Virus record (IMG/VR): IMGVR_UViG_3300006925_000008
Location: 33,369-97,368 of that record
Direction: 5' to 3' (one strand)
DNA length: 64,000 bases
From: a virus
The translations under genes and the position numbers were made by a program. Positions 31,467 through 55,275 of this stretch are shown here, in pieces. The notes below the pieces were generated by a model that ran no database searches, had not been told where the DNA came from, and saw only the letters and a program-made list of their open reading frames with translations. The number at the start of each line of letters is the position of its first letter. Position 1 is the first letter of the stretch.

Positions 31467-32886
31467 CAGCAACAACCTCCTTTAGAACCTGATCGAATGT
31501 CTCAATGGACCAATTCCATGCTTTCATCATTTCCATTTGTTTCGTGGGCAATGCGTAATTGAATGCTAAAACTTTCTGTGCGTTTTCATCGCCGTCTAAG
31601 GATTTCTTCATAATGACCGCATCCTGCTTCTTTTCGTTCATCGAAGGTATTGCCCATTCTAAGGCTTTACGGACAGCAAAGTCCCCCTCAATAATCAAAG
31701 ATGAACCCTCCGCCCTAACATTCCTGACACCCATCTCACTCTTAACAGCGTTGGCATAGGACGGGGCGTTCAGACTAGAAAATTGCATTGTAAGCCGTGG
31801 TTCACCACGAGGTCCAATGCCTAATTCTCCGCTAGTGTCTAGCAATGAACCGACGAGCCTGCCAACATTCTTGATTAGAATATCAGGACGGTCTATGTCA
31901 TAAAACAAACTTCTTTCATCGGCTCTTGTTCCTTGGCCCGCCGTGATTATATCAAACAAAAAACCATGAGATTTGATGAGTTTTGCTATTTCTTTAGAAG
32001 GAGATGATACTCCATATGACTGTAAGGTTTGAGCATTCATCGGACCTCTTTCATACATCACACTCGCACACCGCTCTAAAACTGCATTTTCACGAGATGA
32101 AAGCCTTGATGATTTATCAATTCGATTCCGCCATATGTTATGCGCTCGTTCCTTTTGAGCGTCATCGCTAGAAGATGTCCAAGCCTTGACTAATTGTAAA
32201 AACGGTATTTTTAGACGGTCAAGGTTCTTGTTTAACTGTTCATAGTCCTTATCATTCAATGGCAATTCATTTACAATATCGGGGTTTACTCCCTCGTAAT
32301 ACTTGACAATGGCTTTTCGTTCTTCGATAATTAGTGGTTGCATTGACTCTAGTGCGTCAAACCTCTCGGCTTTGATCAGAATATCTGTAACCTTTGCACT
32401 ACTCATGCCAAAGTTATCCTGAAAGTAAGAGCGTGTTATTGGCACTTCGGCTTGAAGAGGAGGAGGTGCTTCAACCCCGTCCGACTCTCCCGGTGCAGAC
32501 CCGCTCAAATTATTTTTCATACCCCTTACTCCGACATCGGTCCGAGGACCGCCTAGATTCTCCGGTTCTATTGAATCCAATAATGCTTGTCCATCATCAA
32601 CCGGCTCACCCGGCATTTCAGGTTCAGGCGTTGGGATGTCATCAATGACTGGCTGTTCAACCGTTGCTTCTTGTTCCTCGGCGGTTGCTAATTCCTCTTC
32701 GGCTTGTCGCTGTTCAGAAGAAGTGTCCTTGACTTTTTTTCTTGCTTCATTCAGCAATGCGCTACCCATACCCGCCACCTGTTGACCACGGCCATAGGGG
32801 TTATCCTGTCGCTGATTAGGATTAAACTTCAATATAGAATCAACAATACATTCGACTCCGATTACTGCTTCTATTCGATCACGCAC
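31456..32886 (-). CDS. Protein between terminase and portal (476 aa)
   Basis: Start taken as GTG 32886, which overlaps the terminase stop by only 8 nt and has GGGGTGG upstream; ATG 32925 would overlap by 47 nt. The N-terminal third is Glu/Gln/Pro-rich. Then come VTDILIKAERFDALESMQPL (an ILIKA motif) and a folded helical part with HNIWRNRIDKSSRLSSRENAV and RPDILIKNVGRL. Possibly a virion or packaging accessory protein. Not recognised. Confidence 0.65.
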   Translation of the reverse strand: MRDRIEAVIGVECIVDSILKFNPNQRQDNPYGRGQQVAGMGSALLNEARKKVKDTSSEQRQAEEELATAEEQEATVEQPVIDDIPTPEPEMPGEPVDDGQALLDSIEPENLGGPRTDVGVRGMKNNLSGSAPGESDGVEAPPPLQAEVPITRSYFQDNFGMSSAKVTDILIKAERFDALESMQPLIIEERKAIVKYYEGVNPDIVNELPLNDKDYEQLNKNLDRLKIPFLQLVKAWTSSSDDAQKERAHNIWRNRIDKSSRLSSRENAVLERCASVMYERGPMNAQTLQSYGVSSPSKEIAKLIKSHGFLFDIITAGQGTRADERSLFYDIDRPDILIKNVGRLVGSLLDTSGELGIGPRGEPRLTMQFSSLNAPSYANAVKSEMGVRNVRAEGSSLIIEGDFAVRKALEWAIPSMNEKKQDAVIMKKSLDGDENAQKVLAFNYALPTKQMEMMKAWNWSIETFDQVLKEVVADGQ

Positions 32887-34294
32887 TTTGCCACCCCAGT
32901 CTCTTACTCCATGTGTCGGCATCAAGGATTACAATGTTATCCCTATACTCTTTTGTTGCTTGAACAGACAAAGCGAGCGCAATGACCATATCGTCGTGTG
33001 CGCCTAAACTCTCCATCCTGCCATTCTCAAGCATGGTAAATGTTGACAATTCAGTGATAAGGTTGTTCATGTGCCTCAATGTCGAGCCTTGGTCCTTGTA
33101 AGGAATCGCTAAATGCCCTTGTTCAAAGTGTAACTGCAATGTATGAATTAACGCTTCTTTCTTCATACGGCTCATATTGAACGGTTTGATTGGTAAATCG
33201 CTAATCTCTTTTAATACTTGATTGAATGCTACTGCAAAGTTGTTTGTCTCTAATTCGATAATAACTGGGTTAAATCGTGCATTCAATTCAATGATTTTAT
33301 CAATCTGACTACTGAAGTCCATCCCCTTTTCATGATGGGTGTGAATCACTCTCTTATGCCTGTTCTCATCCATGGCGATGACCATCATGCAGGTGTAATC
33401 CGCTTTTCTGTTTGCACTGATAGCAGGGTCCCAGCCAATGTAGTAATTGAAATGTTCATCGGGGTCGGGGTAATATGAGAGGGATAATGAATCGTCCTTT
33501 GCGTTTGCGATCATCTCTTCAGGGAATAGGCTCTCTTCACTGGATAGTGGTTGACATAGGTATTCACGGGTAAATGCAATAGAAGTCATCTCATTGCGTC
33601 TTGAGTTTAATGCGTCTATGTTCCACCGTTCAGGCCATAGGGGGTCGCCAGTCTTTTCGTTGATTGCCGGATACTCCCTGACTTCATACCCCTTGAGTCC
33701 TTTCAATTCAGCATAAAGGTCTGTGAAAGAGAACGGAGTCCCAACTATGCACAACTGTGCGGTGTGGTGAAGAACAGGCAATAGTGCGGTGTAAAACCAT
33801 TGAGCGACGGACTTCAATTGAGTTGCCGCTTCACTGGATAAAATATCGTCAAGCACTACAATATCAGGGTGCGCTCCACGAACCGCTTTGCCAACAGACA
33901 TTGCCCGAATAGAAGACTTGTTTGTCATTTTGAACAATTGCTTCGCCCATCCACGCTTCGGTTTTAGGTGCTGTAAAGCGGGGGTCATCATAATCAATTC
34001 ATCCATTTTCGCCATGTGGTCAATGGATTGATGTTGACTGTGTGAAAAGAATAGGACTTCTGTTCCGGGGTTGTATGCCATTTTCCAAAGAAGGTAAACA
34101 CGATAGAACACAGACTTGCCGTGGTCTCGTGATGCAATAACGCAGGTTTTGTTATGTCCCTCCGACATCTCATACCATTCTTTGTGAAAGTGTGCTAACT
34201 GAAATCCGCATATGTCTTCAAAGAAGTATTTGAAATCACGGCGACCCATCTCATAATCGACTTTTCCGGTTAAGTCGAGCAGGGGGTTACTCAT
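32879..34294 (-). CDS. terL: Terminase large subunit (471 aa)
   Basis: ATPase-nuclease packaging motor. A deviant Walker A ASRDHGKS (54-61), Walker B DIVVLDDI (144-151) and the coupling motif IVGTPFSF are present. The nuclease half begins NYYIGWDPAISANRKADYT with the first acidic ligand, and has a later acidic cluster (LGAHDDMVIALAL). Its ATG overlaps the previous stop (ATGA). The tag core is absent, as expected for a motor that is not part of the virion. Confidence 0.92.
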   Translation of the reverse strand: MSNPLLDLTGKVDYEMGRRDFKYFFEDICGFQLAHFHKEWYEMSEGHNKTCVIASRDHGKSVFYRVYLLWKMAYNPGTEVLFFSHSQHQSIDHMAKMDELIMMTPALQHLKPKRGWAKQLFKMTNKSSIRAMSVGKAVRGAHPDIVVLDDILSSEAATQLKSVAQWFYTALLPVLHHTAQLCIVGTPFSFTDLYAELKGLKGYEVREYPAINEKTGDPLWPERWNIDALNSRRNEMTSIAFTREYLCQPLSSEESLFPEEMIANAKDDSLSLSYYPDPDEHFNYYIGWDPAISANRKADYTCMMVIAMDENRHKRVIHTHHEKGMDFSSQIDKIIELNARFNPVIIELETNNFAVAFNQVLKEISDLPIKPFNMSRMKKEALIHTLQLHFEQGHLAIPYKDQGSTLRHMNNLITELSTFTMLENGRMESLGAHDDMVIALALSVQATKEYRDNIVILDADTWSKRLGWQSA

Positions 34295-41798: not shown

Positions 41799-42204
41799 GG
41801 GCTTCCCTCCTCATTGTGTTGTAATAATTCTGAACCTTTACTGGCAGGGATAGATACCAGTGTGCTAAAGAAGGTGTTCTAGCGTATGACTTCGCCATGG
41901 TGATCATCGATTGCTTCAAGCAATTTAGCACCTTGACGGCTTCGGTGAAAGGGATTTTAGGACCGCCGGTCTCCATCAAATCGACAAAGAGCATACGGAC
42001 TTGTAACAAATCACCATAAATGGTCATTGCTACATCCTCCTGTCCTTCAATATCAAAAGAATCCATTGCTTCATTCCATTCTTTAACCACGAAGTCCAAT
42101 GCATTCAAAAAACAAACCGCATCAGTTGGATTATCAACAATACCCTCGTGCAAGATGTCCTCAAGGTCTGTATCCTTAAGCATCAACTCGTGTATTGTCT
42201 TCAT
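41785..42204 (-). CDS. Helical protein with LMLKD leader (139 aa)
   Basis: ATG 42204 chosen with AAGGAG nine bases upstream. Starts MKTIHELMLKDTDLEDILHE (hydrophobic-Lys leader), then an all-helical body (LNALDFVVKEWNEAMDSFD; AVKVLNCLKQSMITMAKSYA). Overlaps the next gene. No family recognised; could be a small structural or chaperone-like protein. Confidence 0.68.
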   Translation of the reverse strand: MKTIHELMLKDTDLEDILHEGIVDNPTDAVCFLNALDFVVKEWNEAMDSFDIEGQEDVAMTIYGDLLQVRMLFVDLMETGGPKIPFTEAVKVLNCLKQSMITMAKSYARTPSLAHWYLSLPVKVQNYYNTMRREARGNV

Positions 42205-42221
42205 GTTAAACAACTCCTTTT

Positions 42222-42524
42222 TCAGCGGCATCCGGGTAACTCTTTTGCACAGTTACCATTCTTAGGACCATCAGGGGCATAATATGGATGTTCCGGTGTT
42301 TTCTGTCCACCACATGCTTCACATGTATCGTCATCAGGGTTGAAATCAGACTTGACAATACTCCACCCGATTGTAAACGCTTTACTAATTGTTTCAACCG
42401 TAGCATTGCCGGGTGCATGGTCAGCACACGGGCCACAGCATCTCATCTCCGTTTCTTCATTTTGAACGGTATGCGTTGCCTCACCCGTGCAATCCTTATC
42501 TTTTCCCGATTCACACCTAGCCAT
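42222..42524 (-). CDS. Cys-rich protein with internal tag (100 aa)
   Basis: ATG 42524 follows GGTGAT by five bases. Two Cys clusters (RCESGKDKDC, RCCGPCADH and CEACGG) suggest zinc binding. Between them lies KAFTIGWSIVKSDF, which fits the AFxxxWxLLK tag. The next upstream gene (63 aa) carries a related C-terminal copy, so the two may be duplicated modules. Function unknown. Confidence 0.7.
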   Translation of the reverse strand: MARCESGKDKDCTGEATHTVQNEETEMRCCGPCADHAPGNATVETISKAFTIGWSIVKSDFNPDDDTCEACGGQKTPEHPYYAPDGPKNGNCAKELPGCR

Positions 42525-42529
42525 TTTAA

Positions 42530-42721
42530 TCACCAAATTGAAATCTCCCACGCTGTATCAAAAGCCTTCTTCAAATCCGCTGGATGTTTACCTTCTTTTT
42601 TGAGGTCTTTGTAGCAAGCACACATAGGTTCTTTCTGTGAACATTTCATATTGCCCTTCTTCATGCAAGCGCATGGTTTACTCTTTGTTGCACCACAGCA
42701 ACAACCATCATTATCAGCCAT
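42530..42721 (-). CDS. Small Cys-rich protein with C-terminal tag (63 aa)
   Basis: About nine Cys in the first 40 residues (DGCCCGATKSKPCAC then MCACY) suggest a metal cluster. The last 12 residues KAFDTAWEISIW match the first half of the AFDxAW tag but lack the LLK core. It directly precedes the 100-aa Cys protein. A C-terminal position is unusual for this motif here. Confidence 0.7.
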   Translation of the reverse strand: MADNDGCCCGATKSKPCACMKKGNMKCSQKEPMCACYKDLKKEGKHPADLKKAFDTAWEISIW

Positions 42722-43427
42722 CTTCTAAAACCCCCGCTTCAGCCAAAGACTGTCTCAATTCACGCCATTCGGCGGGAGACTTTTCAGCAAAGTGAGCCTG
42801 TATTACTGTGAGGACAGACATCGAATGACCCTGTTCAATGGTTTCAGCCTTGTCCATCCACTTAGCCAAATCAGTCAGGGTCTCCCTAACTTCTTTATGC
42901 ATTTTGATTGCGATTTGTAAATCAGCCGCTGTCGCCTGTTCCTCTTCATCCCTCATTGCATTCTCAACATGATCGAGATGTAAAGACAAAAGCCGGTCCA
43001 TGCGGTTCATGTTATTTTCAACACGCTTCAATGAATCTGTTACTGATGACATTGCCGATGGTAACACCTCAATCTCGACTTGTTTTTGAACAAGAGGTTT
43101 CGTGTGCTTCTCCATGTGGTCAAAAAGAGTCCCCTCTTCAATACCTAATTCAACTGCAAAGTCTTCGACAGTCGCTCGGCCTTCAAGAATTGCTTCTTCT
43201 ATTACCGCCCTGTCACCGTTGGTGCATACTGGGCAATCTGAATTACTGTTGTTATGATACTCGCCGGAATGCCGCCTCATGTGGCGGTGTGCGGTTCCTT
43301 CAGCCCAGCCTTGGTCTTTATCGAGAGTCTTGACATCCAACATTCCGACTCGGATTTGATGTTCAAAGTCATCCCTTTCAGGGTGCTGACAAAAGTGGCA
43401 ATTCGCCCTTGTCTTACGCCCCGCCAT
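42714..43427 (-). CDS. Duplicated zinc/helix DNA-binding-like protein, possible small terminase (237 aa)
   Basis: Two similar units: CHFCQHPERDDFEHQIRVG...HRHMRRH and CPVCTNGDRAVIEEAILEG...LFDHMEKH. Each has a CxxC start, a helix with an acidic patch, a helix-turn-helix-like step and a final HxxxH. Such repeats are seen in phage DNA-recognition proteins. The C-terminal half is coiled-coil (VTDSLKRVENNMNRMDRL). It could be the small terminase, although the large subunit lies 8 kb downstream in the same unit. Confidence 0.62.
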   Translation of the reverse strand: MAGRKTRANCHFCQHPERDDFEHQIRVGMLDVKTLDKDQGWAEGTAHRHMRRHSGEYHNNSNSDCPVCTNGDRAVIEEAILEGRATVEDFAVELGIEEGTLFDHMEKHTKPLVQKQVEIEVLPSAMSSVTDSLKRVENNMNRMDRLLSLHLDHVENAMRDEEEQATAADLQIAIKMHKEVRETLTDLAKWMDKAETIEQGHSMSVLTVIQAHFAEKSPAEWRELRQSLAEAGVLEDG

Positions 43428-43448
43428 GTATGGCCCATGTCAAGTGCC

Positions 43449-43628
43449 TCAATTAGCCTTTTCATTCAACTTACCATGAATTGTGCAATATCCTTCGTAT
43501 TTAGGAGATGCCAAACGCTTACACGGGTTCCCCGTTTTTGTCAATGCCTTACACTTCATTGAAGTGTCTTCCTTCGGCTTCTCTTGAACGGGCGGAGCCT
43601 CGATTATTGCTTCTCGATACTCCATCAT
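43449..43628 (-). CDS. Small Cys/His protein (59 aa)
   Basis: Start at the first of two ATGs near 43628 (MMEYREAII), clear of the upstream stop. The C-terminal CKALTKTGNPCKRLASPKYE followed by GYCTIHGK is a short C-x8-C-x10-C-x2-H motif seen in many small phage proteins. Probably a zinc-binding protein. Function unknown. Confidence 0.65.
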   Translation of the reverse strand: MMEYREAIIEAPPVQEKPKEDTSMKCKALTKTGNPCKRLASPKYEGYCTIHGKLNEKAN

Positions 43629-43647
43629 TGGCGACAGGCGATACCTG

Positions 43648-43920
43648 TCAATACCGAAAGGATGCGAATTGTTTGATCGCAACCGACATGGTGAAAATAA
43701 GGCCAAAGAATCCAAGCATCATTTGGGTGGCTGTCAAGTCCTGACCCCGCCAAATCAATGTCACCAAAGAGAATAACAGGAACGCAATTATGAATATCAT
43801 TGTCGCACTTTCGACTAGCATTTTATTTGGAGATACGAAAGCGTCAAGCGTATTTGCCCAACTCACCGTATTCATGTGTTCGTCCTGTAACTGCGTTTCC
43901 GACTTTTTTCCTTCATTCAT
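43648..43920 (-). CDS. Small membrane protein with two TM helices (90 aa)
   Basis: Segments ATMIFIIAFLLFSLVTLIW and TQMMLGFFGLIFTMSVAI are two hydrophobic helices with a short polar turn, preceded by a polar N-terminus. It could be a holin-like or membrane-anchor protein. It belongs to the membrane-rich cluster that also holds the GTPase. No lysis enzyme is visible nearby. Confidence 0.68.
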   Translation of the reverse strand: MNEGKKSETQLQDEHMNTVSWANTLDAFVSPNKMLVESATMIFIIAFLLFSLVTLIWRGQDLTATQMMLGFFGLIFTMSVAIKQFASFRY

Positions 43921-43930
43921 TTAATTCACC

Positions 43931-44572
43931 TCAAAGGCCCATAGGGGACATTACCGCCCCTGCTTTTGCCACATTGCCCATGGCATTACCCATGCCGCCT
44001 TGTTGTTGCATTTGGTTGCCTAGCATACCGCCGAGTAAACTGCCAAAGAATCCGGGTTGTTGTTGGTTCATAGCCATTGGATTATGAGCCATTAGGAACA
44101 TCTGTTGTTGTTGCATTCTTTGCTGGATTCCCATGTTGATGTTGTTTTGCACTTGTTGTAGTGTGAGTTGTAAGTTTTCAGGGGACATTGTTGCCAAGGT
44201 TGCTGGCATTGAAGAAGTATCGATAACAAAGTTTTCTTCAGCGTCTTGCTTAAACTTCACAGACTGGAAAAACTCTTTGACGGCCAAAGTAACAACTCCA
44301 CCCATCAACTCGATCAGCATTGCGAAGTTTTGCGAGACAATGAAATCAGACACGGGGTCATTGAAATCAAGAAGGCGAGCGGTTGCAGTAATGGGGTCAT
44401 TAGCCATTTGTTGCATCATTGGATTTTGAGCCTGTTGACCCATCATCATAGCACCCATACCTCCTTGATTCATTCCGTTCATTCCGTTCATTCCTCCTGC
44501 ATTGGGTTGCCCAAAAGAGGGGGTCCCAAATTGAGAGGTTGGTGTTGCACTATCTTTTGAAAACCAGCCCAT
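43931..44572 (-). CDS. Gln/Met/Asn-rich protein (213 aa)
   Basis: Starts with MGWFSKDSATP, then Met/Asn/Gly repeats (NGMNGMNQGGMGAMMMG). A compact central helical part follows (VSDFIVSQNFAMLIELMGGV), then a Gln/Met-rich tail. The low-complexity repeats are encoded by short tandem repeats near 44475-44500. Function unknown; it travels with the GTPase and membrane genes. Confidence 0.66.
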   Translation of the reverse strand: MGWFSKDSATPTSQFGTPSFGQPNAGGMNGMNGMNQGGMGAMMMGQQAQNPMMQQMANDPITATARLLDFNDPVSDFIVSQNFAMLIELMGGVVTLAVKEFFQSVKFKQDAEENFVIDTSSMPATLATMSPENLQLTLQQVQNNINMGIQQRMQQQQMFLMAHNPMAMNQQQPGFFGSLLGGMLGNQMQQQGGMGNAMGNVAKAGAVMSPMGL

Positions 44573-44576
44573 TGTT

Positions 44577-45533
44577 TCATTCTCCTGTTATCGGTTGTAG
44601 CGTTGCCGCCTGTGGTGATGGCACAGCAACCTGATTCATCATACTTGCGCTACCTGCTACTCCGAGATATTGATTTTGCATTTGCTGGCTTTCTAACTGC
44701 AATGCACGAAGGTCGAATGTGACCATGACTATATCCGCCACGCCACTTATTGGATTTGGATGCTGGACCATGGTTATGCCTTTGCTATGTGCGGCATCAC
44801 GGTGAATCATTTCAAAAAAAGGCTCATACTTCTGAAGAGACTCCAATGTTGATCGGTTTTGTTTTTTACCTTGCATACCCTTCATCATTGCCCCAACTCC
44901 GGGTATTTTTTGAAATCTAGTCCCTTTGCTGACCTTTTTCCCAAAACCTTCGCTTTCTAATTCATGTTCCTGCGTGAGAGAGGTGAGGGTGTGCTTAATG
45001 TGAAGGTGAGCGGGACAAAGCGTGCTATTCATTTCATCTCCGTGGTCGCCGTGGGTTCTAGCATGTGGCTTCTTTGCCTGTCCAGTGTCCTCGTCAAACC
45101 AATAAATATCCGCCAAAGATAAGCCCACTCGCTCATCAACAATGTGTGCATAGGCGTTATCCCCTTCTAGGAACCTTCTGACATCAACCCCACAACACGC
45201 ACACTCATATGCGGCATTGTAACGATATATTTTGAAAAGTCCAAGATTGTAATTAGGCGGGCGTAACGCTTTACGAAGCATTTTGATATTCTTTTTACGA
45301 GCCTTTTTGGGGTTTTTAGGATTCTGTTTTAATTGAATCTCAACAGTTGGGATTAGCATCTCTTGTTTGTCATCAACTCCGCCGGATGAGCCGGAAGAGG
45401 CCATTTCAGCCCTTTGCTGTGCCTTGATTAAATCAAAACTGATACCGCTTTGGGCCGACAAAACACGCAACTGTTCGTCATTCAATGAAGTAAGCGAGGG
45501 GGTTCCTCCCCCCATAAACGGCATCCACGCCAT
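44577..45533 (-). CDS. Cys/His protein with LIKA leader (318 aa)
   Basis: The N-terminus contains SGISFDLIKAQQRAEM (LIKA motif at about residues 34-37). A basic helical segment follows (KKARKKNIKMLRKAL), then ECACCGVDVRRFLEG and a later TLCPAHLHIKH that may form a split zinc site. The C-terminus is Gln/Ala-rich. It lies directly downstream of the GTPase gene and may be functionally linked. Function unknown. Confidence 0.66.
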   Translation of the reverse strand: MAWMPFMGGGTPSLTSLNDEQLRVLSAQSGISFDLIKAQQRAEMASSGSSGGVDDKQEMLIPTVEIQLKQNPKNPKKARKKNIKMLRKALRPPNYNLGLFKIYRYNAAYECACCGVDVRRFLEGDNAYAHIVDERVGLSLADIYWFDEDTGQAKKPHARTHGDHGDEMNSTLCPAHLHIKHTLTSLTQEHELESEGFGKKVSKGTRFQKIPGVGAMMKGMQGKKQNRSTLESLQKYEPFFEMIHRDAAHSKGITMVQHPNPISGVADIVMVTFDLRALQLESQQMQNQYLGVAGSASMMNQVAVPSPQAATLQPITGE

Positions 45534-45574
45534 ATACCTGCCAGTCCTGACAGGCTGATAAGGGTGGCGGTAAT

Positions 45575-46306
45575 TTACATCCCTTCTATCAATTTAACCA
45601 AAACGCTTTCAACATTCAAACCATGTTGGGCTGAAATCGCTTCAACTTCAGCCCTTATCCCTGCTTTTCTTAGTCTCTTGAGTCCATCTCTAAAGGGATA
45701 TACAATAGGATGTTCTCGCTTCATGTTCATATCCCAAAGGGCTTTGGCGTTATGGTCATACCAAATGTCCATCTTGTTGATCAGAAGACAAAAAAGTTTA
45801 GGCTCATACTTGTTTGCTTTACGCTTCATCCGACGATTAAAGGTCGAAGGATACCGTTTTTTGAGCAAAGCATCCACTACATATTCAAAACCAGCGACGG
45901 CATCCATCCTGCATTGGAGATTTGTTAATACTCGATGATCAACCATGTAAATGACAACCTCAACCTTTCGACCTATCATGTCCTCAATCCAAAGGTTACG
46001 AAACTGGGCCTGACCGCCTATGTCATTGTTGACAACAGACTTCTTGTCTTTTTTCCATCGCAACAATTTTCTTTTTGCTTTTGGCATTCTGTATTTTTTT
46101 GTATCCGTTTCATAAGCGTGAGTCGTTCTAAACTCAAGAGGGATAGGGTCTATATCTCCGGGGACTGTCAAGTATTGGTCAAGAGTTGTTTTACCCGCCA
46201 TCGAAGGGCCATATATGCCAAAGCGGTAAGGTTTGAGTATTCGATATATCTGATGGGCGACTGTTATCGAACCTAGGATAAAATGTCCTGCGACAAGCGC
46301 ACTCAA
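45575..46306 (-). CDS. Arf/Ras-like small GTPase with N-terminal hydrophobic helix (243 aa)
   Basis: All main GTPase motifs are visible: P-loop GPSMAGKTT (33-41), switch II NDIGGQAQFRNLW (94-106, Arf-like DxGGQ), NKMD (177-180) and the SAQ loop (225-227). The first 25 residues are hydrophobic and may anchor it in membrane. TTG start at 46306 with GAGGGGG eight bases upstream. Insertions between switch I and II are basic (KKYRMPKAKRKLLRWKK). Neighbours are membrane proteins, suggesting a membrane-located switch. Such GTPases are unusual in tailed viruses. Confidence 0.85.
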   Translation of the reverse strand: MSALVAGHFILGSITVAHQIYRILKPYRFGIYGPSMAGKTTLDQYLTVPGDIDPIPLEFRTTHAYETDTKKYRMPKAKRKLLRWKKDKKSVVNNDIGGQAQFRNLWIEDMIGRKVEVVIYMVDHRVLTNLQCRMDAVAGFEYVVDALLKKRYPSTFNRRMKRKANKYEPKLFCLLINKMDIWYDHNAKALWDMNMKREHPIVYPFRDGLKRLRKAGIRAEVEAISAQHGLNVESVLVKLIEGM

Positions 46307-46319
46307 ATTGAGGTCCCCC

Positions 46320-46541
46320 TCATCGGTTGACTATGTAGTCCCAAACATCGGACGGAGTATATCCTAAAACATCCAAACCAAAAAGTAATGCGAAGGTGAG
46401 ACCAACCCCGGCAATCATCGCTATAATTGTTCTTACCCATCCTGCCATCCTCTCCATTTTTCGTTCATATGAGTTTTCAGCAAGAATCATAGACATCGCT
46501 TCCGCTTGTCTTTCCTGCTTGTTGGTGAACGGCCATACCAT
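46320..46541 (-). CDS. Small single-TM protein (73 aa)
   Basis: A polar N-terminus (MVWPFTNKQERQAEAMS) precedes a hydrophobic helix TIIAMIAGVGLTFALLFGLDVL and a short polar end. It lies immediately upstream of the GTPase and is presumably translated with it. Possible membrane partner or holin-like protein. Confidence 0.68.
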   Translation of the reverse strand: MVWPFTNKQERQAEAMSMILAENSYERKMERMAGWVRTIIAMIAGVGLTFALLFGLDVLGYTPSDVWDYIVNR

Positions 46542-46557
46542 GAATAGACCTCCTTAA

Positions 46558-47043
46558 TCAGTCATTTTCATTGTTTTCACTGGTTTCTTCATCAGTCGAT
46601 GAACCCTGCATCTGTTGCCATGGATAACCAAACACCTGCCCCTGTGACTGTTGCTGGTTGTTTTGATAGTAATTTTGTTTTTGGTTCCTGCGTTGCATTA
46701 AACGCATTTGGCTTCTTTGCCATTTGTCATAACGATGCTCTTGGGATAATTCCGCCCTGATCGCCAAAGAGTCTCGGATGCCACCCACATGAAACAAAAC
46801 CATTGCGGTGCATAAGAAACCGAATGCAATTAGTCCATATTGTAGTCCCATTTCACCGGGGGTCGCATTTGGTAAATACCACCCTAAATGAGAAACTGCA
46901 ACTGCGCTTCCTGTAAGCAATGCCTGCCATAGCAACATGGCTATCAGATTTACATCGATTCGTTGGTTGTCTTGCGCCCAAGGAGGAACCCCTCCGTTTG
47001 GCGAATGCGGTCCTTGTGGCCGAATTGGTCCATTTTGTTTCAT
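46558..47043 (-). CDS. Two-TM membrane protein (161 aa)
   Basis: Two hydrophobic helices, NLIAMLLWQALLTGSAVAV and LIAFGFLCTAMVLFHV, are followed by a long polar Gln/Asn-rich C-terminus (KQNYYQNNQQQSQGQ). Its ATG overlaps the stop of the ribbon-helix-helix gene (ATGA). It is the second gene of unit B, next to the GTPase module. Confidence 0.7.
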   Translation of the reverse strand: MKQNGPIRPQGPHSPNGGVPPWAQDNQRIDVNLIAMLLWQALLTGSAVAVSHLGWYLPNATPGEMGLQYGLIAFGFLCTAMVLFHVGGIRDSLAIRAELSQEHRYDKWQRSQMRLMQRRNQKQNYYQNNQQQSQGQVFGYPWQQMQGSSTDEETSENNEND

Positions 47044-47189
47044 TTTCCTTCACCCGATTTGGTTTTTTCGTTCTTGAAATACTGTTCAAGAACAAAATTG
47101 ATGAACGACGACTTAGATTCCCTGCCTCTTTCAGACTCCATTTTTACATACAAATGGTCCTGCATTACAACTGAAACATGTCGGCTCAT
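47040..47189 (-). CDS. Ribbon-helix-helix-like regulator (49 aa)
   Basis: Short frame starting MSRHVSVVMQDHLYVKM: a strand followed by two helices (ESKSSFINFVLEQYFK) and a basic tail, the layout of a CopG-like ribbon-helix-helix DNA-binding protein. It is the first gene of unit B and stands opposite the plus-strand gene at 47258, so it may autoregulate the divergent region. No ribosome site is clear; a weak CATAA box sits near -27. Confidence 0.62.
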   Translation of the reverse strand: MSRHVSVVMQDHLYVKMESERGRESKSSFINFVLEQYFKNEKTKSGEGK

Positions 47190-47257
47190 CGTATAATGCC
47201 AACCCTGACAGCCTTATGAGCATTATGATGAAGTAGTGAGACCGTTTGGGGTATATC

Positions 47258-47755
47258 ATGCCGAACCTGATCGAAGCCGTAAATGCAATGAGGTCATACA
47301 ATAATACAATTGAAGCAACCTCTCTCGACACTTCAGCATTAGCGTCATGGATTGACAGAAACGCAAACACGAATGTGCAACGCCAACAACAATTCTCAAC
47401 AGATGCGGCGATAGGAGTCTTAAGTTACTACGGGCATCCTCTATTCACCAGTGCAAATCTAAACCAGTCTCAAATGGACTGGACGGCTTTAATGGCATCC
47501 GCAGAACAGATTCTTCAACAAGAAGTAACTTGGAGTAACCAACAGGTGTCAATAGCAAACTTGACTATGTTCGCTCGTTTGTTTGGTTCTGATGTTAGTT
47601 GGCTAAACACTTGGGCCAATGGACGAATGGCTCCGAATACAAGCATCGAGTTTATTGTAAACGAATTGATTTCCGATTTTAGAACCTGTCAAGGTCAAAG
47701 CGGTGCGGGTTCGATCAACCACCAGTCTCATACGCCGGTTTCACCAATACCCTGA
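47258..47755 (+). CDS. Plus-strand protein of unknown function (165 aa)
   Basis: ATG at 47258 (MPNLIEAVNAMRSYNNT) preceded by GGGGT; a TTG at 47246 is possible. The product is helical and polar, with a Trp/Asp-containing centre (QMDWTALMASAEQILQQEV; GSDVSWLNTWANGRM). It converges with the 430-aa gene and overlaps its 3' end by 28 nt. It is one of only two plus-strand genes. Function unknown. Confidence 0.65.
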   Translation: MPNLIEAVNAMRSYNNTIEATSLDTSALASWIDRNANTNVQRQQQFSTDAAIGVLSYYGHPLFTSANLNQSQMDWTALMASAEQILQQEVTWSNQQVSIANLTMFARLFGSDVSWLNTWANGRMAPNTSIEFIVNELISDFRTCQGQSGAGSINHQSHTPVSPIP

Positions 47756-49020
47756 AGATTGAATTGCGAGAGGTCAACCCCATCCATTGGGACCTGAACC
47801 TGCTGTCTTTCAGCGAGTCTCATGTTTGTGTTTTGAACCGCTTGGTCGTGAGAAGCCTGTTCTAATGGGTTTCTGCTCATCATAGCGGCTTTAGTCGTAT
47901 GCCCTGAATAGTCAATATGTTTGATGCTTGGGTCCCAGCAGGCATTGCACCCGTGCGACTCGCACTTACCCATGTCGTCTTTTTGGCCTGCCGATGGACA
48001 CACCCACACGCTGTCAGGTGCTAGATGTGACGCATTCATTGTCGATACGCTGACTTGAGGGTGTTGAGACATGTATTCCTCGATTAGACCCTGCGCCAAT
48101 TGATTACCTTTGGGTGTGGACATACGCAATGCGAGGTTTTTAGGAATATCCGCATTAGCCACGCCGCCATTGGCATCCATCCAAGTCCCAACATGGTTGT
48201 ATTCACGAGTCGGCAACCAAAACTGCTTTTCAGGATGCGCTCGTGCTATGTCCATTAACATGGACAAATGTTCGGGGGACTGTAAATCTCCTGCGGAAAA
48301 CAGCCGGATGTGGTCTCCCGCTTGATGGTTTTCGATTTGATATGACAAAGCGGCGGCATAGAGCATAGGGTTGGCCATGCCTAGCATGTTCCTCCATTGA
48401 ATACGCTGGGGGTGTTCTTGATTTTGTCTGCTGTAATCAGCATAACAGCCATTGCACGCTGAACCCTCCACATTTCTCAATTTTCCTCCTACATTACAAG
48501 CCGCTGTTGGGAGGTCTTCAGCACCGCCCCACATTTTACCGGGGGATGAAAGCCCCCCGTATCCATCGTATGAGTTTGAATTGACTCCTTTTATCCCGCT
48601 TTTCTTAATCCATTCAAGTATTTGCCTCGGAGTCTGTGCGGGCATACCTGTTTGATTTTGATAAATGTCTTTCATGACATGACCGCCCTGACCGTTCCTA
48701 AATTGAACGCCTGCGCCTGTGATCGGATAAGTTGCTAGTCCCGCTCTTGATTCGTCTATTGCTTGTTGCCATGTCGGGTGTATTGGCAGTTTTGTTGCCT
48801 CAATCATCGAACCGGCTCCACCGGGACCCTCGTAGCCTCTCGACGCACGGAATACATCGAGACCTGTTCCCAACTGCGGCAATAACTCATTCACCTCTTT
48901 GATACTGCGGAGGAGGATGTCCTTCACTAGAGAGTCATGCATAGGACCTCCGCATGAATGACAAATCAGGTGATGGGTGTCATCATGGAGGATTGCATTT
49001 TCAGGGTTGCCTCGACTCAT
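47728..49020 (-). CDS. GP88-like Fe-S/radical-type protein (430 aa)
   Basis: ATG 49020 overlaps the methyltransferase stop (ATGA) with GGGGGAG nine bases upstream. The N-terminus has a CHSCGG zinc motif and an SLVKD segment. The centre has TAACNVGGKLRNVEGSACNG followed by CYADY, like the Cys pattern of mycobacteriophage gp88-type proteins, then IRLFSAGDLQSPEHL and a Cys-rich C-terminus (CESHGCNACWD). A related but shorter protein lies at 51500-52309. Likely binds an iron-sulfur cluster; the reaction is unknown. Confidence 0.7.
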   Translation of the reverse strand: MSRGNPENAILHDDTHHLICHSCGGPMHDSLVKDILLRSIKEVNELLPQLGTGLDVFRASRGYEGPGGAGSMIEATKLPIHPTWQQAIDESRAGLATYPITGAGVQFRNGQGGHVMKDIYQNQTGMPAQTPRQILEWIKKSGIKGVNSNSYDGYGGLSSPGKMWGGAEDLPTAACNVGGKLRNVEGSACNGCYADYSRQNQEHPQRIQWRNMLGMANPMLYAAALSYQIENHQAGDHIRLFSAGDLQSPEHLSMLMDIARAHPEKQFWLPTREYNHVGTWMDANGGVANADIPKNLALRMSTPKGNQLAQGLIEEYMSQHPQVSVSTMNASHLAPDSVWVCPSAGQKDDMGKCESHGCNACWDPSIKHIDYSGHTTKAAMMSRNPLEQASHDQAVQNTNMRLAERQQVQVPMDGVDLSQFNLQGIGETGV

Positions 49021-51350
49021 GGTGTCCAACTCCCCCTTGAGTTTTTCCAACTGGCTATCTCATCGGCTCCCATATCAGACAACCATGGCATGTTCGCATA
49101 TGCAAACATTTCGGGAACCTTCTTTGCATCCGACTTTACATTGCCCTCCCACCTATCGGCGGTGGCAAACTCCCCACCCTCGGACTCATCAACAAACTTG
49201 GTGTTTTCAGGATGAGGCGTGTCATGCCATGTCACGGGTATGCCCCGCTTGGCCAATGTTTGAAACAATTGACCAATGATGTCTGAATCCTCACTACGCC
49301 ATCCAGTGTGCTGGCCTTCTTGACCTCGATAAGGAGGGTCCAAAGCAACTGCGAAGTTTTCCGGCATTCGCTTTTGGTTGATCAGGTCTTTTACACCCAT
49401 ATTCAGAATGTTTGAATTGCGAAGGGTTCTATGATAATCGCCAAAGTCTGTCTCATCCTCGGTGATTCCGTAAGGCATTGTTCCACCCGCATAATATGCT
49501 GGTTGCCTTAGACCACCTTTACCCATCCATTCAGGTTTAGCCGCATCTGATTTAGCCCATTCAGGTCTAACCTTGCCAAAGTTGCCCTTTGCATCCGAAG
49601 TCCATATGTCCTCATCATCTTCACTCAATCCAAAGCGGTCCCGGTTTATTTTCCCCGAATTGATGATTGACTCCACTGATGAACCAAAGCCTCGCCCCGC
49701 ACTTGCTCTTGGTCTAGGTCCGGGCATATTCATGTGGCCACCTTTATTGTAGCGGAATGATTGCGAATAGGCGTTCTTAGAGAGGAACCATGTGAGCCTC
49801 AATAACTCAATCTCTTCATCAGGAGTAAGTCCGGCTACTTTTCGTTTGTCAGTCAAACGATTGAAACGGTCTTGTTGCTTGTAATAGTTGATTCCATAGA
49901 AGACACCTTCTAGGTCAGGCATACCAAATTGGTCAATCTCGTCTTGTGTGACGGGTCCACCGACTGGCATTTCAGGCGAACCCTCCTTGCCTTTGTATGA
50001 TGAAAAGGTCGGTGTTTCGCCAACACGAGTCAAAACCATATCCTGCAAAGCCTTTGCATCAAAGATTTCAGGGCGGTATTTGACAGCATTATGCAGGCTT
50101 GCCATCTCACGGCTTAAATCCGAACCTATGTGTGAGGGGGGTTGTAAACCATATGTGATTCCGCCACCACCCATGAATGGTTCAACAAGAGTTGTCCCCT
50201 CCTCCATAAGAGGGGCATACGCTGATTGATATTGCCTCCTGTAAGGTTTTTTCAAATCAGCCATATTCTTCACGCCCATGATCGATGCTAAGGGTTTCAA
50301 TGGTGCAGGCCTGTCCCATTTGACAACAGACCACGCATCTTCAAATATCGCTGATGATTCATCTGAACGGATAATGTCTCCCGACAATGCCTGCTCATAC
50401 ACCCTGCGTCCTTGGGGGGTCAAATCGTCAGGGTTGAAGTAAAGCCCATAACGACCAGTAGCCAAACCTTGGTTAATGCCATGCTTGCCTTCTGTTGCTG
50501 ACATAGTTGGAGGGACAGGAACACCTGCTTTTCCTTCATGCTCAACATATCCACTAGCATAGCCCGCACTAGGAATCATCAAAAGAGGGTCCACTGAACC
50601 TGTGACCTGATAATCTCTAGCCTCACGCCATGGCCTGCCTTCGTCCTCTCGATATTCACGCCTGCCTTCTTTGTCTTGGGAGAATACACTGTAACCTAAC
50701 CGAGGCATTTCATACCCCTCTTCATTGAATAAAGCAATGTCTCCTTGATATGTGCGGCCCACATTGAAACCTAAATCGCCTAGGTTTTTTCGCCCCTGCA
50801 TTAAATCAAGCATCAACTGCTGATCAAGATTACCTTGAGTCCACAAATGCCGAGACCTAACGCCGCTAAATGGTTTTTTGAACCTATCTGAATGAGACCC
50901 CTGCATTGGTCTTCCTTCTGAATCTCTATGCATTGTCCCGTGAAATGCCTGCCTTTGCTGTCCTTCATCAACGGCAATACGAGGTTTCTGAAGTGGCATT
51001 GCATTGGCAACGGCTACGACTGACGGAGAGCCAGTGCCAAACTTGCGTTCAAGGCTCAACATTGCTGAAGACTTGTCATTGACGGGGTTGGGGGAATGAA
51101 ACTTTGATTGAGAGATGTTTCTGAACATCCTTGCGTCGGCTGGTTCGCCTAGAGGGTCTTTTGACTTGAATTGCTTAGGCGGTTGCATAAACCGTGTGTC
51201 ATCAATGTTTTTTTGGTCAGCCACTGGATACATTGTCAAGCCAGTTTGACTAACCACTCCTTGGCCCGGTCTGCCTCTTTTGTTACCCGGCCATTCTTTC
51301 AATATACTGATGCCCGCTGTGGCGGCTTGGGTATGGCTGTCGCCGGACAT
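49017..51350 (-). CDS. DNA adenine methyltransferase (D12-like) with N-terminal region and internal tag (777 aa)
   Basis: The C-terminal half is a D12-class N6-adenine methyltransferase: LVEPFMGGGGITYG (SAM loop, 389-400) and ALDPPYRG (DPPY at about 671-674). The N-terminal 330 residues are a separate region of unknown role, with a QAFHGT motif. Between them lies SSAIFEDAWSVVKWDRP (about 333-347), the same signal that other cargo genes carry at the N-terminus. A TATA-like CATATC lies about 27 nt upstream of the ATG. It may protect or mark DNA after entry. Confidence 0.8.
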   Translation of the reverse strand: MSGDSHTQAATAGISILKEWPGNKRGRPGQGVVSQTGLTMYPVADQKNIDDTRFMQPPKQFKSKDPLGEPADARMFRNISQSKFHSPNPVNDKSSAMLSLERKFGTGSPSVVAVANAMPLQKPRIAVDEGQQRQAFHGTMHRDSEGRPMQGSHSDRFKKPFSGVRSRHLWTQGNLDQQLMLDLMQGRKNLGDLGFNVGRTYQGDIALFNEEGYEMPRLGYSVFSQDKEGRREYREDEGRPWREARDYQVTGSVDPLLMIPSAGYASGYVEHEGKAGVPVPPTMSATEGKHGINQGLATGRYGLYFNPDDLTPQGRRVYEQALSGDIIRSDESSAIFEDAWSVVKWDRPAPLKPLASIMGVKNMADLKKPYRRQYQSAYAPLMEEGTTLVEPFMGGGGITYGLQPPSHIGSDLSREMASLHNAVKYRPEIFDAKALQDMVLTRVGETPTFSSYKGKEGSPEMPVGGPVTQDEIDQFGMPDLEGVFYGINYYKQQDRFNRLTDKRKVAGLTPDEEIELLRLTWFLSKNAYSQSFRYNKGGHMNMPGPRPRASAGRGFGSSVESIINSGKINRDRFGLSEDDEDIWTSDAKGNFGKVRPEWAKSDAAKPEWMGKGGLRQPAYYAGGTMPYGITEDETDFGDYHRTLRNSNILNMGVKDLINQKRMPENFAVALDPPYRGQEGQHTGWRSEDSDIIGQLFQTLAKRGIPVTWHDTPHPENTKFVDESEGGEFATADRWEGNVKSDAKKVPEMFAYANMPWLSDMGADEIASWKNSRGSWTP
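50316..50351 (-). other. Internal copy of the cargo tag in the methyltransferase
   Basis: Residues about 334-345 read AIFEDAWSVVKW. The Trp and Lys are spaced as in the N-terminal tags (WxxxK). It separates the N-terminal region from the methyltransferase domain. Confidence 0.55.
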
Positions 51351-52346: not shown

Positions 52347-52736
52347 TCAAATCTCACGAGCGATATAGCCTCTTGAATGAATCTCTTTTGGCTTCGTCCG
52401 TTCAACATCGGTCAATGGATACCCAACCGATTTGCCTTCTTTATCCTCTTTTGACCCCTTTGGGACTCTATGTTGTTTTCTATCCCGGTCAAACTCCTGT
52501 GAATTGTTGTATTGCTTTGGCTTTTCAATATCCATAAAGCCGACTAATTCAGCGGGACCTTTGCCCGTCCTGATAATACCGACCTCCTCACCCACATACG
52601 GGTCGAGACTATTGGTCCTTCTAGTTTCAATGGTCTTCTCACCATCAAGTATCATTTCAGTATATGGGGCTTCACTATCATTGATGTTAATCCCCATCTG
52701 TTTAACCAATGCCCACGCTCGGTCAAAGGCCGTCAT
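52347..52736 (-). CDS. Tagged ASCH-domain protein (129 aa)
   Basis: Starts MTAFDRAWALVKQMGI (tag), then an ASCH/PUA-like part: PYTEMILDGEKTIETRR (24-40), VGEEVGIIRTGKGPAELVGF and a final charged tail. ASCH domains bind RNA or modified bases. Start at 52736, five codons after a GTG. One of the consecutive tagged cargo genes. Confidence 0.78.
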   Translation of the reverse strand: MTAFDRAWALVKQMGININDSEAPYTEMILDGEKTIETRRTNSLDPYVGEEVGIIRTGKGPAELVGFMDIEKPKQYNNSQEFDRDRKQHRVPKGSKEDKEGKSVGYPLTDVERTKPKEIHSRGYIAREI

Positions 52737-52760
52737 GGTAATGGGACGCACCGATCATAC

Positions 52761-53180
52761 TTAGGCGATCTGTTTGGTTATAGCCCAAGCATCAACAAAT
52801 GCTTTGTCAGATGATGCAGTGAAGTAATCGGCCAAACGACTCCCGCCTTTATTCCAGTCAGGGTCTTCAGGGTCAATTTCTAAACCGTGAGTATCCTCTT
52901 CAACATCTCTCGGATTAAATCTAGGTTGGGGGTTGGAGGGGTTCATACCCTGCGGGTCCGTGGGGTCCGGCTTGTATCCCCTGAATGGGTTAGGCTTTTC
53001 ATTTTCCCTGCCGGTGTATGCTCGTGGGATAAAACCTGATTGCCTTCTCCCCTCTTTTTCATAATCCTCTAGGGGTATTCCTGTTGTTCGTGGGTCGGTG
53101 TCGTCCCAGTCTTCCTCCTCGTCATCAGCAGGAGCCATTGCCGACTTTAGAACATTCCATGCCCGATCAAAGGCCGACAT
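52761..53180 (-). CDS. Tagged acidic/Pro-rich protein (139 aa)
   Basis: Starts MSAFDRAWNVLKSAMAPAD (tag), then acidic Asp/Glu and Pro/Gly/Arg-rich low-complexity sequence, with C-terminal FVDAWAITKQIA, possibly a second, diverged copy of the tag. The ATG shares one base with the previous stop (TGATG). Probably disordered; function unknown. Confidence 0.7.
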   Translation of the reverse strand: MSAFDRAWNVLKSAMAPADDEEEDWDDTDPRTTGIPLEDYEKEGRRQSGFIPRAYTGRENEKPNPFRGYKPDPTDPQGMNPSNPQPRFNPRDVEEDTHGLEIDPEDPDWNKGGSRLADYFTASSDKAFVDAWAITKQIA

Positions 53181-53665
53181 CAACAATTCCACCGTTTTAA
53201 TGAAGCACCCTTTGGGGTAAGTTTGCCGCCTTTACTGGTTGGTCCCTTGACACCGCCCATTCTTGCACAGAACGATTTACGGCGTTTTGCTTTTTTAGAG
53301 CCGGGTTTGAGGGATGATGGCTTTTCAGTTACAGGTGGCTTCAGATTCGCCCCTTCTTCTCTTTTTGCTTTGGCTCGGCCTTTAGCATTTAATCCACCCT
53401 TTTTGCTGTGTTTGTTTGGATTGTAACCATGAAATGGCTTTGACTTAGCCTTTGTTAAAAGAGATGCAACAAGCACATTGCATGTGCCGCAGTCACAAGC
53501 CGACTTCTTTGTCGATGATGGGACGCAGTTTGGGACTTTACGACCTCCCTTTTCTTTCATACCAACCTGCTTGTATCCGTCCCAGCAAGGGTCTTCCTTC
53601 TCCTCTTTGTATGTCTTTTCCTCGTTTTTCAACAGGGACCATCCATTAGCAAAAGCAGATGACAT
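53180..53665 (-). CDS. Tagged basic protein, widespread phage Lys-rich family (161 aa)
   Basis: Starts MSSAFANGWSLLKNEEKTY (tag; ATG 53665 six bases after GAGGA). Then DPCWDGYKQVGMKEKGGRKV...PNCVP, and C-terminal KGGLNAKGRAKAKREEGANL with KRRKSFCARMGGVKGPT...LKRWNC. These two blocks recur together in many phage and virus hypothetical proteins. Strongly basic, probably nucleic-acid binding. Function unproven. Confidence 0.78.
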   Translation of the reverse strand: MSSAFANGWSLLKNEEKTYKEEKEDPCWDGYKQVGMKEKGGRKVPNCVPSSTKKSACDCGTCNVLVASLLTKAKSKPFHGYNPNKHSKKGGLNAKGRAKAKREEGANLKPPVTEKPSSLKPGSKKAKRRKSFCARMGGVKGPTSKGGKLTPKGASLKRWNC

Positions 53666-53667
53666 AA

Positions 53668-54312
53668 TCATTCCTCGTTTTTAGAGTCCTTTTTATCGCT
53701 TGGTTTCTTAAACTTTGAAGAACCCGGCATAGTGTGAGTATTCTTTCTTGCACGGTCAATTAGACCCTGCCCTAGTTTAGGTGGCTTTGCGGGGTTCTCC
53801 ATGTCAGGAGATTTACCTTTTCTGTCGCCGCCAGCGGTTCGTCTTTTTTCCTCACTACGCTTCTGTTCGTAGTTTTTAGGAGACATTTCACGCATTGGAC
53901 CTTCGCCTTGTCCACCATACGGCTCGCCCGTATCACCTTTGCCGGGGTAGTCTTTTGGATTCGCCATCATTCTTTTTTGGCGTTCCGGGTCCATTTGGCC
54001 CATTGCATCAGGAGGAGTAATGTCTCCCCTATCAAACATTCTTGTTCTTGGAGGCGGTGAGTCGTATTCAGAAGGTGGTCCCGTTGGGTTCATTCCTCCC
54101 ATTGGGTTTTGATGCATTGGAGGGATTTTTTGGCCCTCTTCAACTCTCATGTTGATCAGCGCATCTAGTAAACGGGGGTTCATTCGACGCATGGCATCAG
54201 CATGGGAGCCTTGCCCCAGTGGACCATTGATGGTATTACCATCCATTGGGTCATCACCATACATATTTGGCATTTTAAGCACGCTCCATGCACGCTCAAA
54301 GGAATCGGACAT
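53668..54312 (-). CDS. Tagged Met/Pro/Gly-rich protein (214 aa)
   Basis: Starts MSDSFERAWSVLKMPNMYG (tag), followed by low-complexity Met/Pro/Gly-rich and Lys-rich sequence with no folded domain visible. The tag is the only conserved part. Might be a disordered cargo or spacer protein. Next to the 56-aa zinc protein. Confidence 0.7.
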   Translation of the reverse strand: MSDSFERAWSVLKMPNMYGDDPMDGNTINGPLGQGSHADAMRRMNPRLLDALINMRVEEGQKIPPMHQNPMGGMNPTGPPSEYDSPPPRTRMFDRGDITPPDAMGQMDPERQKRMMANPKDYPGKGDTGEPYGGQGEGPMREMSPKNYEQKRSEEKRRTAGGDRKGKSPDMENPAKPPKLGQGLIDRARKNTHTMPGSSKFKKPSDKKDSKNEE

Positions 54313-54335
54313 GGTTTTGCGAGGGTGTTTAATAC

Positions 54336-54506
54336 CTAAACACTTTCTATAAGACCGGCTTCTTTTATCTCATCCTGCGTCATTTCACGCATCCGCCGCT
54401 GGCATTTACTGCAATTGGGCCTTTTGGCTATTGAATACAACCGATGGATTGATTTTGTGTCAACATTGTAACATCCCCTGCGACATTCGCACCATCTATA
54501 CGGCAT
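54336..54506 (-). CDS. Very small zinc-binding-like protein (56 aa)
   Basis: Too short for usual ORF cut-offs. MPYRWCECRRGCYNVDTK, then PNCSKCQRRMREM: a CxC...C and a CxxC pair that could bind zinc. The rest is basic and helical. It lies between two tagged genes, in a gap that would otherwise be empty. Convincing composition but no ribosome site is clear. Confidence 0.55.
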   Translation of the reverse strand: MPYRWCECRRGCYNVDTKSIHRLYSIAKRPNCSKCQRRMREMTQDEIKEAGLIESV

Positions 54507-54561
54507 AGATTTCAAGAGATGGGCTGTTGGTTTTTGAATGTTTACTTCGGGTCAAAGGGTT

Positions 54562-55275
54562 TTATTGTCCCCTCTCTCTCAAACGCCTTACAAAGTCATG
54601 TGGTTTTGAACCACCAATCAACATATCATTTGTTGTGATTTTATCCCAAAGTGGTTGTTCACCGTATAACTCTTCAAGGGCTTCATACAATTCCCCTGAA
54701 TGCACTTCATCGCCTCGTAAATCGGGATAAATAGATTCCCAGTGGCCACGCCCTCCTTTTCGGGGCGGGAGGAATATATTATCCCATGCCTCATCCTCAT
54801 CACCATCATCGGAGTAATGTTCTTCCTCAAAGTCATCCATTTCTTCGTCATACAAATCCGAGTCAATGATATTTTGAATGATTTGGGCTATGTGTTCATC
54901 CGGCAATTTTTTTGAATGAGGCGGGACAACCCCTTCTTGATCATGAAAAGCCACACGGCCTCTTTCAATTGCGCTTGAAATACCATTACCCATGTATTCT
55001 TCATCCCTCGGAACATCAATGTATTCATCCTTTGGCGCAGTTGCCATGTGTAATTCGGGATAATGCACATTTGCATCAACAAAAGGCGAACCCTCGTAAT
55101 CGTTGCGTGGACCAAACATTGCGTAAGCCAAAGCCTTTGATTTGTGCGGTGTCCAATATCCTGTGTCTTCGTCACCAGTCCTTCGACCTTGGTATAAATA
55201 ATCAGTCTGCAAACCGCCGTCCTCGACGACAAAAGGCATTTTGAGAAGACTCCAAGCCTGATCGAATGCGGTCAT
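54562..55275 (-). CDS. Tagged ADP-ribosyltransferase-like protein (237 aa)
   Basis: Starts MTAFDQAWSLLKMPFVVED (tag). Residues 24-55 read TDYLYQGRRT...TGYWTPHKSKALAYAMFG: an LYxGR strand, a YWT step and an ALAYA helix, as in ADP-ribosyltransferase-like folds. A downstream acidic stretch could hold the catalytic Glu, but I cannot place it. The second ART-like gene is at 57378. Adjacent to the next gene with no gap. If active it would modify host proteins or nucleic acids. Confidence 0.62.
   Translation of the reverse strand: MTAFDQAWSLLKMPFVVEDGGLQTDYLYQGRRTGDEDTGYWTPHKSKALAYAMFGPRNDYEGSPFVDANVHYPELHMATAPKDEYIDVPRDEEYMGNGISSAIERGRVAFHDQEGVVPPHSKKLPDEHIAQIIQNIIDSDLYDEEMDDFEEEHYSDDGDEDEAWDNIFLPPRKGGRGHWESIYPDLRGDEVHSGELYEALEELYGEQPLWDKITTNDMLIGGSKPHDFVRRLRERGQ

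Follow-up and report, generated by a model that had tools for sequence, protein, structure and literature searches.

What would a tailed virus do with a small GTPase that it encodes among membrane proteins? The question is raised by a window of 64,000 nucleotides, corresponding to bases 33369-97368 of a virus record that is 97,368 bases long. The initial annotation of the window placed an Arf/Ras-like GTPase and neighbouring one- and two-transmembrane (TM) proteins in the interval 45575-47043, and proposed for them a role in host membrane remodelling, assembly or release. This interval spans just three genes, and the conserved unit to which they belong extends to 43648 (Table 1).

Table 1. Features of the six-gene unit and its surroundings, in positions of the window
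Feature	Position	Strand	Description	Basis
Spacer upstream of the unit	47044..47245		Probable promoter region; divergent from the (+) ORF 47246-47755	
TM2a	46558..47043	(-)	First gene; 161 aa, two TM, charged/Q-rich cytosolic tail	Hydropathy
FGYP in TM2a tail	46621..46632	(-)	Residues 138-141	FGxP count vs shuffles
TM1	46320..46541	(-)	73 aa, basic N-terminal helix (ERQAEAMS..LAEN.YERR.ER), then one TM	Hydropathy
Small GTPase gene	45575-46306	(-)	243 aa, TTG start	Motifs, AF2, Foldseek, relatives
GTPase N-terminal hydrophobic helix	46235..46303	(-)	Residues 2-24	AF2 helix, KD19 maximum 1.30
G1 / P-loop GPSMAGKTT	46184..46210	(-)	Residues 33-41	G33, G38, K39, T40, T41 invariant 63/63
Switch I signature RTTH	46118..46129	(-)	Residues 60-63	R60, T61, H63 invariant 63/63
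G3 DIGGQ	46010..46024	(-)	Residues 95-99	D95 and G98 invariant; position 99 varies
G4 NKMD	45767..45778	(-)	Residues 177-180	NK[AMI]D in 63/63
G5 SAQ	45626..45634	(-)	Residues 225-227	[SA][ATS] in 63/63
P318, zinc-type	44577..45533	(-)	318 aa, helical core 62-200, disordered ends	
MQ	43931..44572	(-)	213 aa, M/Q/G/N-rich tails, conserved helical-looking core	Alignment
FGTP in MQ N-tail	44519..44530	(-)	Residues 15-18	FGxP count vs shuffles
TM2b	43648..43920	(-)	Last gene; 90 aa, TM segments of KD 2.54 (strong) and 1.68 (borderline)	Hydropathy
TerS-like	42714..43427	(-)	Zinc/HTH-type protein at small-terminase position	Weak PHROG match, E = 0.049
Large terminase (TerL)	32879..34294	(-)		Terminase_6C, E = 1.8e-10

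By its motifs and predicted fold, the product of the ORF at 45575-46306 is a divergent GTPase of the Ras superfamily. The P-loop, DxGGQ, NKxD and SAx motifs reported initially were all recovered, as GPSMAGKTT, DIGGQ, NKMD and SAQ. All 63 diverse relatives that we aligned share GxxxxGKTT, RTxH, Dx[GA]G and NKxD without exception. The site of the 'catalytic' glutamine, position 99, is occupied by Q in 42 relatives, by E in 15, by D in 5 and by H in one. Invariant binding motifs next to a variable Gln99 suggest, at the level of sequence, that the family strictly keeps nucleotide binding and does not keep the canonical glutamine mechanism. The invariant Arg60, which lies beside the switch-I Thr61, could act as an arginine finger in cis. 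The AlphaFold2 (AF2) model, built on an alignment of 42 relatives (pLDDT 86, pTM 0.84), has a Ras-like alpha/beta fold, and a Foldseek search against the PDB returned Rab, Ras and Rap, with E-values down to 2.5e-8 and target TM-scores of about 0.5-0.69 among the matches listed. Together with the G1, G3 and G4 motifs, this fold places the protein among the Ras-superfamily (TRAFAC) small GTPases. The invariance of the motifs, the confident fold and a dN/dS of 0.037 against the 92%-identical locus L003 put the ORF far beyond chance. In one relative (L146:9989-10711), the gene is split into two ORFs, 9989-10555 and 10571-10711, probably by a frameshift or an assembly error.

The hydrophobic N-terminus that had been described corresponds to a helix in the model, with low AF2 confidence over its first residues. 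Its hydropathy lies below the usual TM cut-off, with a KD19 maximum of 1.30 in the window protein and of 0.5-1.55 in nearly all relatives. This segment is likely a membrane helix of moderate hydrophobicity.

We compared the GTPase with profiles of known families. Arf, Roc, Ras, MMR_HSR1, EF-Tu, Rag and SRPRB all gave weak matches, and none of them reached its curated cut-off on the window protein. The best Pfam match is Arf (PF00025, E = 2e-4), which scores 21.3 bits against a cut-off of 22.3; SRbeta (PF09439) scores 12.5 bits against a cut-off of 25 (E = 0.094). Since both scores fall below the cut-offs, membership in either family is unsupported. The best match among PDB sequences is 8oun, a 'GTP-binding protein' of the Arl8 type (profile E = 4.7e-6), and NCBIfam recognizes the general small_GTP domain alone, in 9 of 63 relatives. 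Like Arf/Arl proteins, the viral GTPase has a DxGGQ G3 motif followed by FRNLW and a hydrophobic helix ahead of the G domain. Unlike them, it has a long switch-I region with RTxH, a variable catalytic glutamine, a score below the Arf cut-off and a weakly amphipathic N-terminal helix: in most members the helix is hydrophobic and of low moment (muH 0.03-0.35), not amphipathic as in Arf. The beta subunit of the SRP receptor also combines an N-terminal membrane-type helix with a small GTPase. The viral protein shares this architecture with SRbeta, but it has five partners of its own and no link to an SRP gene. When viral structures were searched, the named matches among the top 50 were all giant-virus proteins, mostly small GTPases. 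Those of Pithovirus and Klosneuvirus (Ras/Rab) are likewise encoded by viruses and share the Ras-superfamily fold, but they are 10-20% identical to the GTPase described here and their hosts are eukaryotic. Two scans of genome contigs, for the GTPase and the thermosome, found no cellular relatives with exact peptide patterns, which are a weak test. On these comparisons, the GTPase is a new, divergent family within a known superfamily. The original label thus holds as far as a Ras/Arf-type small GTPase is concerned, whereas 'Arf' is nothing but the nearest name, given the weak profile matches.

Relatives of the GTPase are present in at least 236 IMG/VR contigs. A tblastn search detected none in 50,697 phage records, in agreement with the rarity in tailed viruses that had been claimed, and none was found in 72,556 plasmids. 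The relatives form two deep clades, with clade 2 GTPases about 37-44% identical to that of the window and the corresponding TerL proteins 45-47% identical. Among 80 close TerL loci, all 24 that reach 10 kb upstream of TerL contain the GTPase. When 30 whole records were searched, 22 were positive, each with a single copy (22/22), and the eight negative records are short or break off within about 8 kb of TerL on its upstream side. Pairwise distances between GTPases follow those between TerL proteins (r = 0.886; permutation maximum 0.09), and the other unit proteins tested behave in the same way (r 0.89-0.95). Across the six unit genes and the TerS-like gene, dN/dS against L003 ranges from 0.02 to 0.08. 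The presence in 24 of 24 loci, the single copy and the distances that track TerL indicate a core gene, inherited vertically with the terminase and, as judged from the substitution rates, under strong constraint. We discarded HCTV-1 as an outgroup because its TerL is just 12-24% identical and, by annotation, no such block precedes it.

These data bear on two ways in which the initial annotation could have been wrong. One was absence from related viruses, among which the gene proved to be universal. The other was that a housekeeping GTPase of the translation or SRP type had been captured by recombination. The EF-Tu and SRPRB profiles do give weak scores, but the window protein stays below the curated cut-offs, and at least two deep virus clades carry the gene universally, together with conserved partners. 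A recent capture is refuted by this universal, vertical and partner-conserving distribution, and we regard housekeeping capture as highly improbable. The GTPase may have an ancient origin in a translation- or SRP-type family.

The GTPase is the third of six genes arranged in the fixed order TM2a, TM1, GTPase, P318, MQ and TM2b, followed by the TerS-like gene and, further downstream, by TerL. The same gene order is found in both deep clades. We examined 134 mutually related sources, the window's own virus among them. The GTPase, P318, MQ and the TerS-like gene occur in all of them, TM2a in 126 (most of the other cases being due to contig ends or to ORF calls that overlap) and TM2b in 124; TM1 has a homologue at the same place in clade 2 (hhalign probability 92, E = 5e-7). 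Hydropathy bore out the one-TM protein at 46320 and the two-TM protein at 46558, and of the two segments ascribed to the protein at 43648 it supported the first strongly, the second being borderline. In P318, an alignment of 66 sequences revealed an invariant Cys/His set (C111, C173, H176, H178, H181). Its AF2 model (pLDDT 78.6, pTM 0.50) had no significant fold match, and the protein had no profile match in Pfam or PDB sequences. An HNH nuclease or an ArfGAP-like zinc protein, both considered on account of the Cys/His pattern, were rejected because these searches returned nothing significant.

In clade 1, the median gaps inside the unit are 13, 6, 19, 7 and -0.5 bp, compared with 190 bp ahead of the unit and about 240 bp between it and TerS. 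These tight internal gaps and wide flanking gaps mark out a unit of its own, and the six genes read as a single transcription unit with its own predicted promoter. The genes upstream vary, being GP88/methylase, FDxAW-tagged genes or a protein of 2-3 kaa, while the unit is constant; the TerS-like gene comes after it in all sources. A lone plus-strand gene (47246-47755) within the minus-strand block is divergent from the unit, with which it has a common probable promoter region, and is kept in 26 sources. In three loci, TM2b and the TerS-like gene are separated by a small ORF with an EF-hand-like stretch (L004:8941-9342, with LDVNEDGKVDLTDAMAALEQW; L005:6209-6574; L006:6753-7196). As a module, the unit matched no Pfam, PHROG or PADLOC system, and a defence system was rejected for lack of a PADLOC match. 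No RNA families were found in positions 42000-50000 of the window.

The tails of TM2a and MQ carry the same short motif, which differs between the clades. In clade 1, FGxP is found in 36 of 45 C-terminal tails of TM2a (0.3 in shuffled sequences) and in 35 of 52 N-tails of MQ (0.5 shuffled). In clade 2, [LMI][NDST]LG is found in 45 of 81 TM2a tails (0.3 shuffled) and in 68 of 82 MQ tails (1.5 shuffled). The FGxP and LxLG motifs almost never cross between clades. When whole proteins are considered, FGxP is prominent only in TM2a (37/48) and MQ (39/55); the next-highest family is a methylase-type protein (11/40), and most families have none. LxLG is less specific: some w38583, w40488 and TM2b proteins contain it as well, in part within TM segments. 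The joint swap of one motif by two unrelated proteins suggests that both tails dock on a common partner whose pocket changed, with P318 as a candidate. Because the swap is one evolutionary event, we take it as a lead and not as proof.

To which hosts do these viruses belong? The window's virus encodes an archaeal thermosome, an S78 protease, a portal and a large terminase, and the best relatives of its major capsid protein are those of the haloarchaeal viruses HCTV-1/HVTV-1. Among 22 GTPase-bearing records of 86-118 kb, 19 encode a Cpn60/TCP1 chaperonin and 15 encode PolB; four more chaperonins that we examined are of the archaeal type too. The window's own record has the thermosome and no PolB. 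A PolB match is missing from the window's virus (G000) and its nearest relatives, in contrast to G011, G013, G023, G026 and G031-G041, and most records have the chaperonin. The thermosome, the presence of PolB in many records and the HVTV-1/HCTV-1-like capsid point to archaeal hosts, probably Poseidoniales. A similar gene set has been reported for the viruses of MGII/Poseidoniales known as 'magroviruses' (PMC5332604; PMC10768690). Magroviruses (order Magrovirales) are recognised as tailed viruses of about 90-100+ kb with PolB and a chaperonin.

A further feature of these genomes is the tag (M)TAFDxAWxxVK, short and in most cases N-terminal, which is carried by consecutive and otherwise unlike proteins on the minus strand at 52347-58681 (genes at 52347, 52761, 53668, 54562, 55276, 55779, 56545, 57378 and 58124). 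It is internal in 49017-51350 and 42222-42551, and is present in many genes of L003-L006, L019 and L021. We counted 219 matches in 1,328 ORFs compared with 1.2 in shuffled proteins, 136 of them within 10 residues of a terminus. The tag looks like a sorting or encapsidation signal, perhaps one cleaved by the S78 protease.

We measured hydropathy over the ORFs of the 97-kb record. TM-strength segments occur only in the tape measure, in a marginal 815-aa protein and in TM2a, TM1 and TM2b, so that the unit accounts for each of the small TM proteins seen in the window's virus. This census makes it likely that a small membrane-acting protein of this virus, if there is one, comes from the unit. The 107-kb relative G001 gave a similar result, except for a 3,528-aa protein with several TM-strength segments (C1:27284-37870, plus strand) and a few short ORFs. 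TM candidates are more numerous in G023 and G034, where many of them are probably spurious ORFs.

Our preferred explanation is that the GTPase is the switch subunit of a six-protein membrane complex that acts late, most likely in egress, and we give it somewhat less than an even chance. TM2a, TM1 and TM2b would sit in the host cytoplasmic membrane, where the GTPase would be held through its N-terminal helix, while TM2a and MQ would dock on one partner, possibly P318, via the same tail motif. GTP loading or hydrolysis would switch the state of the complex. In favour of such a complex are the motifs and fold of the GTPase, the invariant gene order in both deep clades, the compact spacing, the core status with distances that track TerL, and the tail motif common to TM2a and MQ. 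Expressed late with the packaging genes, the complex would open or remodel the host membrane and let virions exit, thereby doing the timing and membrane-breaking job of bacteriophage holin cassettes. Many phages keep their lysis genes at this position, upstream of the terminase genes, as lambda-type phages do with their lysis cassette, and an archaeal host has no murein to digest. Egress is favoured by the location of the unit at the usual lysis-gene position of phages, by the TM census and by the fact that murein-free archaea need only membrane opening. It is also favoured because isolated archaeal viruses had yielded no identified holin gene by 2015 (PMC4456609), and the candidates from later work are only putative (PMC12596118). 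Phage holin and lysis cassettes place small proteins with one or two TM segments at the start of a late unit just ahead of TerS/TerL, and TM2a, TM1 and TM2b similarly lie directly upstream of the TerS-like gene. Unlike such cassettes, the unit contains a GTPase along with two soluble proteins that are conserved, and it has neither an endolysin nor a sequence match to holins. PVAP / STIV C92, used in archaeal virus release (PMC4456609), is comparable as a small TM protein of an archaeal virus, but it is a single self-assembling protein with no NTPase partner and has no Pfam or PHROG match to the unit.

Several observations argue against egress. No holin, spanin or PVAP-like match to the unit was detected in Pfam or PHROGs, the GTPase helix is below TM strength, the motif swap is a single event, and G023 and G034 have further possible TM ORFs. 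Moreover, conservation beside the terminase fits assembly equally well. In the main rival explanation, the unit is a platform tethered to the cytoplasmic membrane that gathers procapsids, terminase and DNA, with the GTPase timing docking and release and the low-complexity MQ tails helping condensation. This would account for the position of the unit, which immediately precedes the TerS-like gene in all sources, the co-inheritance with TerL, the M/Q/G-rich tails of MQ and the docking motif common to TM2a and MQ. To our knowledge, however, tailed viruses generally package their DNA without membrane proteins, and HCTV-1, whose capsid is related, has by annotation no such block before its terminase. 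We consider such a platform unlikely, though deserving serious attention.

The proximity to head and packaging genes could also mean that the TM proteins, which may be virion parts, and the GTPase are packaged or ejected and aid the genome in crossing the membrane. Such an entry component is improbable, since a nucleotide switch inside a virion would be unusual and gaps of its own set the unit apart from the genes downstream. Finally, the Ras/Arf-type fold and the highly conserved switch I, a region that usually contacts effectors, would suit a protein that early in infection competes with a small GTPase or a membrane pathway of the host, or mimics it, for host takeover or superinfection control. 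Genes for host interaction usually vary among related viruses, whereas the unit is universal and conserved in order, and there was no defence-system match; we judge this role quite improbable. Overall, the membrane role in release or assembly put forward by the initial annotation is strengthened by gene position, TM census and operon structure, and is still best read as a proposal.

Tailed viruses that infect marine archaea of the Poseidoniales type are found widely and have not been cultured, and the exit route of tailed archaeal viruses is an open question. A core, single-copy membrane module of six genes with a molecular switch offers a defined set of proteins with which to approach it. The unit also adds a Ras/Arf-type GTPase to the core genes of prokaryotic tailed viruses. 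This GTPase family has a signature RTxH switch I and a variable catalytic glutamine, and TM2a and MQ form a pair of motif-sharing partners. The part of the magrovirus literature that we covered holds no mention of the GTPase, and an earlier mention elsewhere is possible. A GTPase-driven egress machine unrelated to holins, spanins and PVAP would be the conserved means of release in a large group of tailed viruses that infect marine archaea, a possibility that we put forward tentatively and with some doubt. If it were true, these would be, as far as we know, the first tailed viruses with a small GTPase of their own as a switch. The unit is a strong candidate for the means by which these viruses act on, and perhaps exit through, the archaeal cell membrane.
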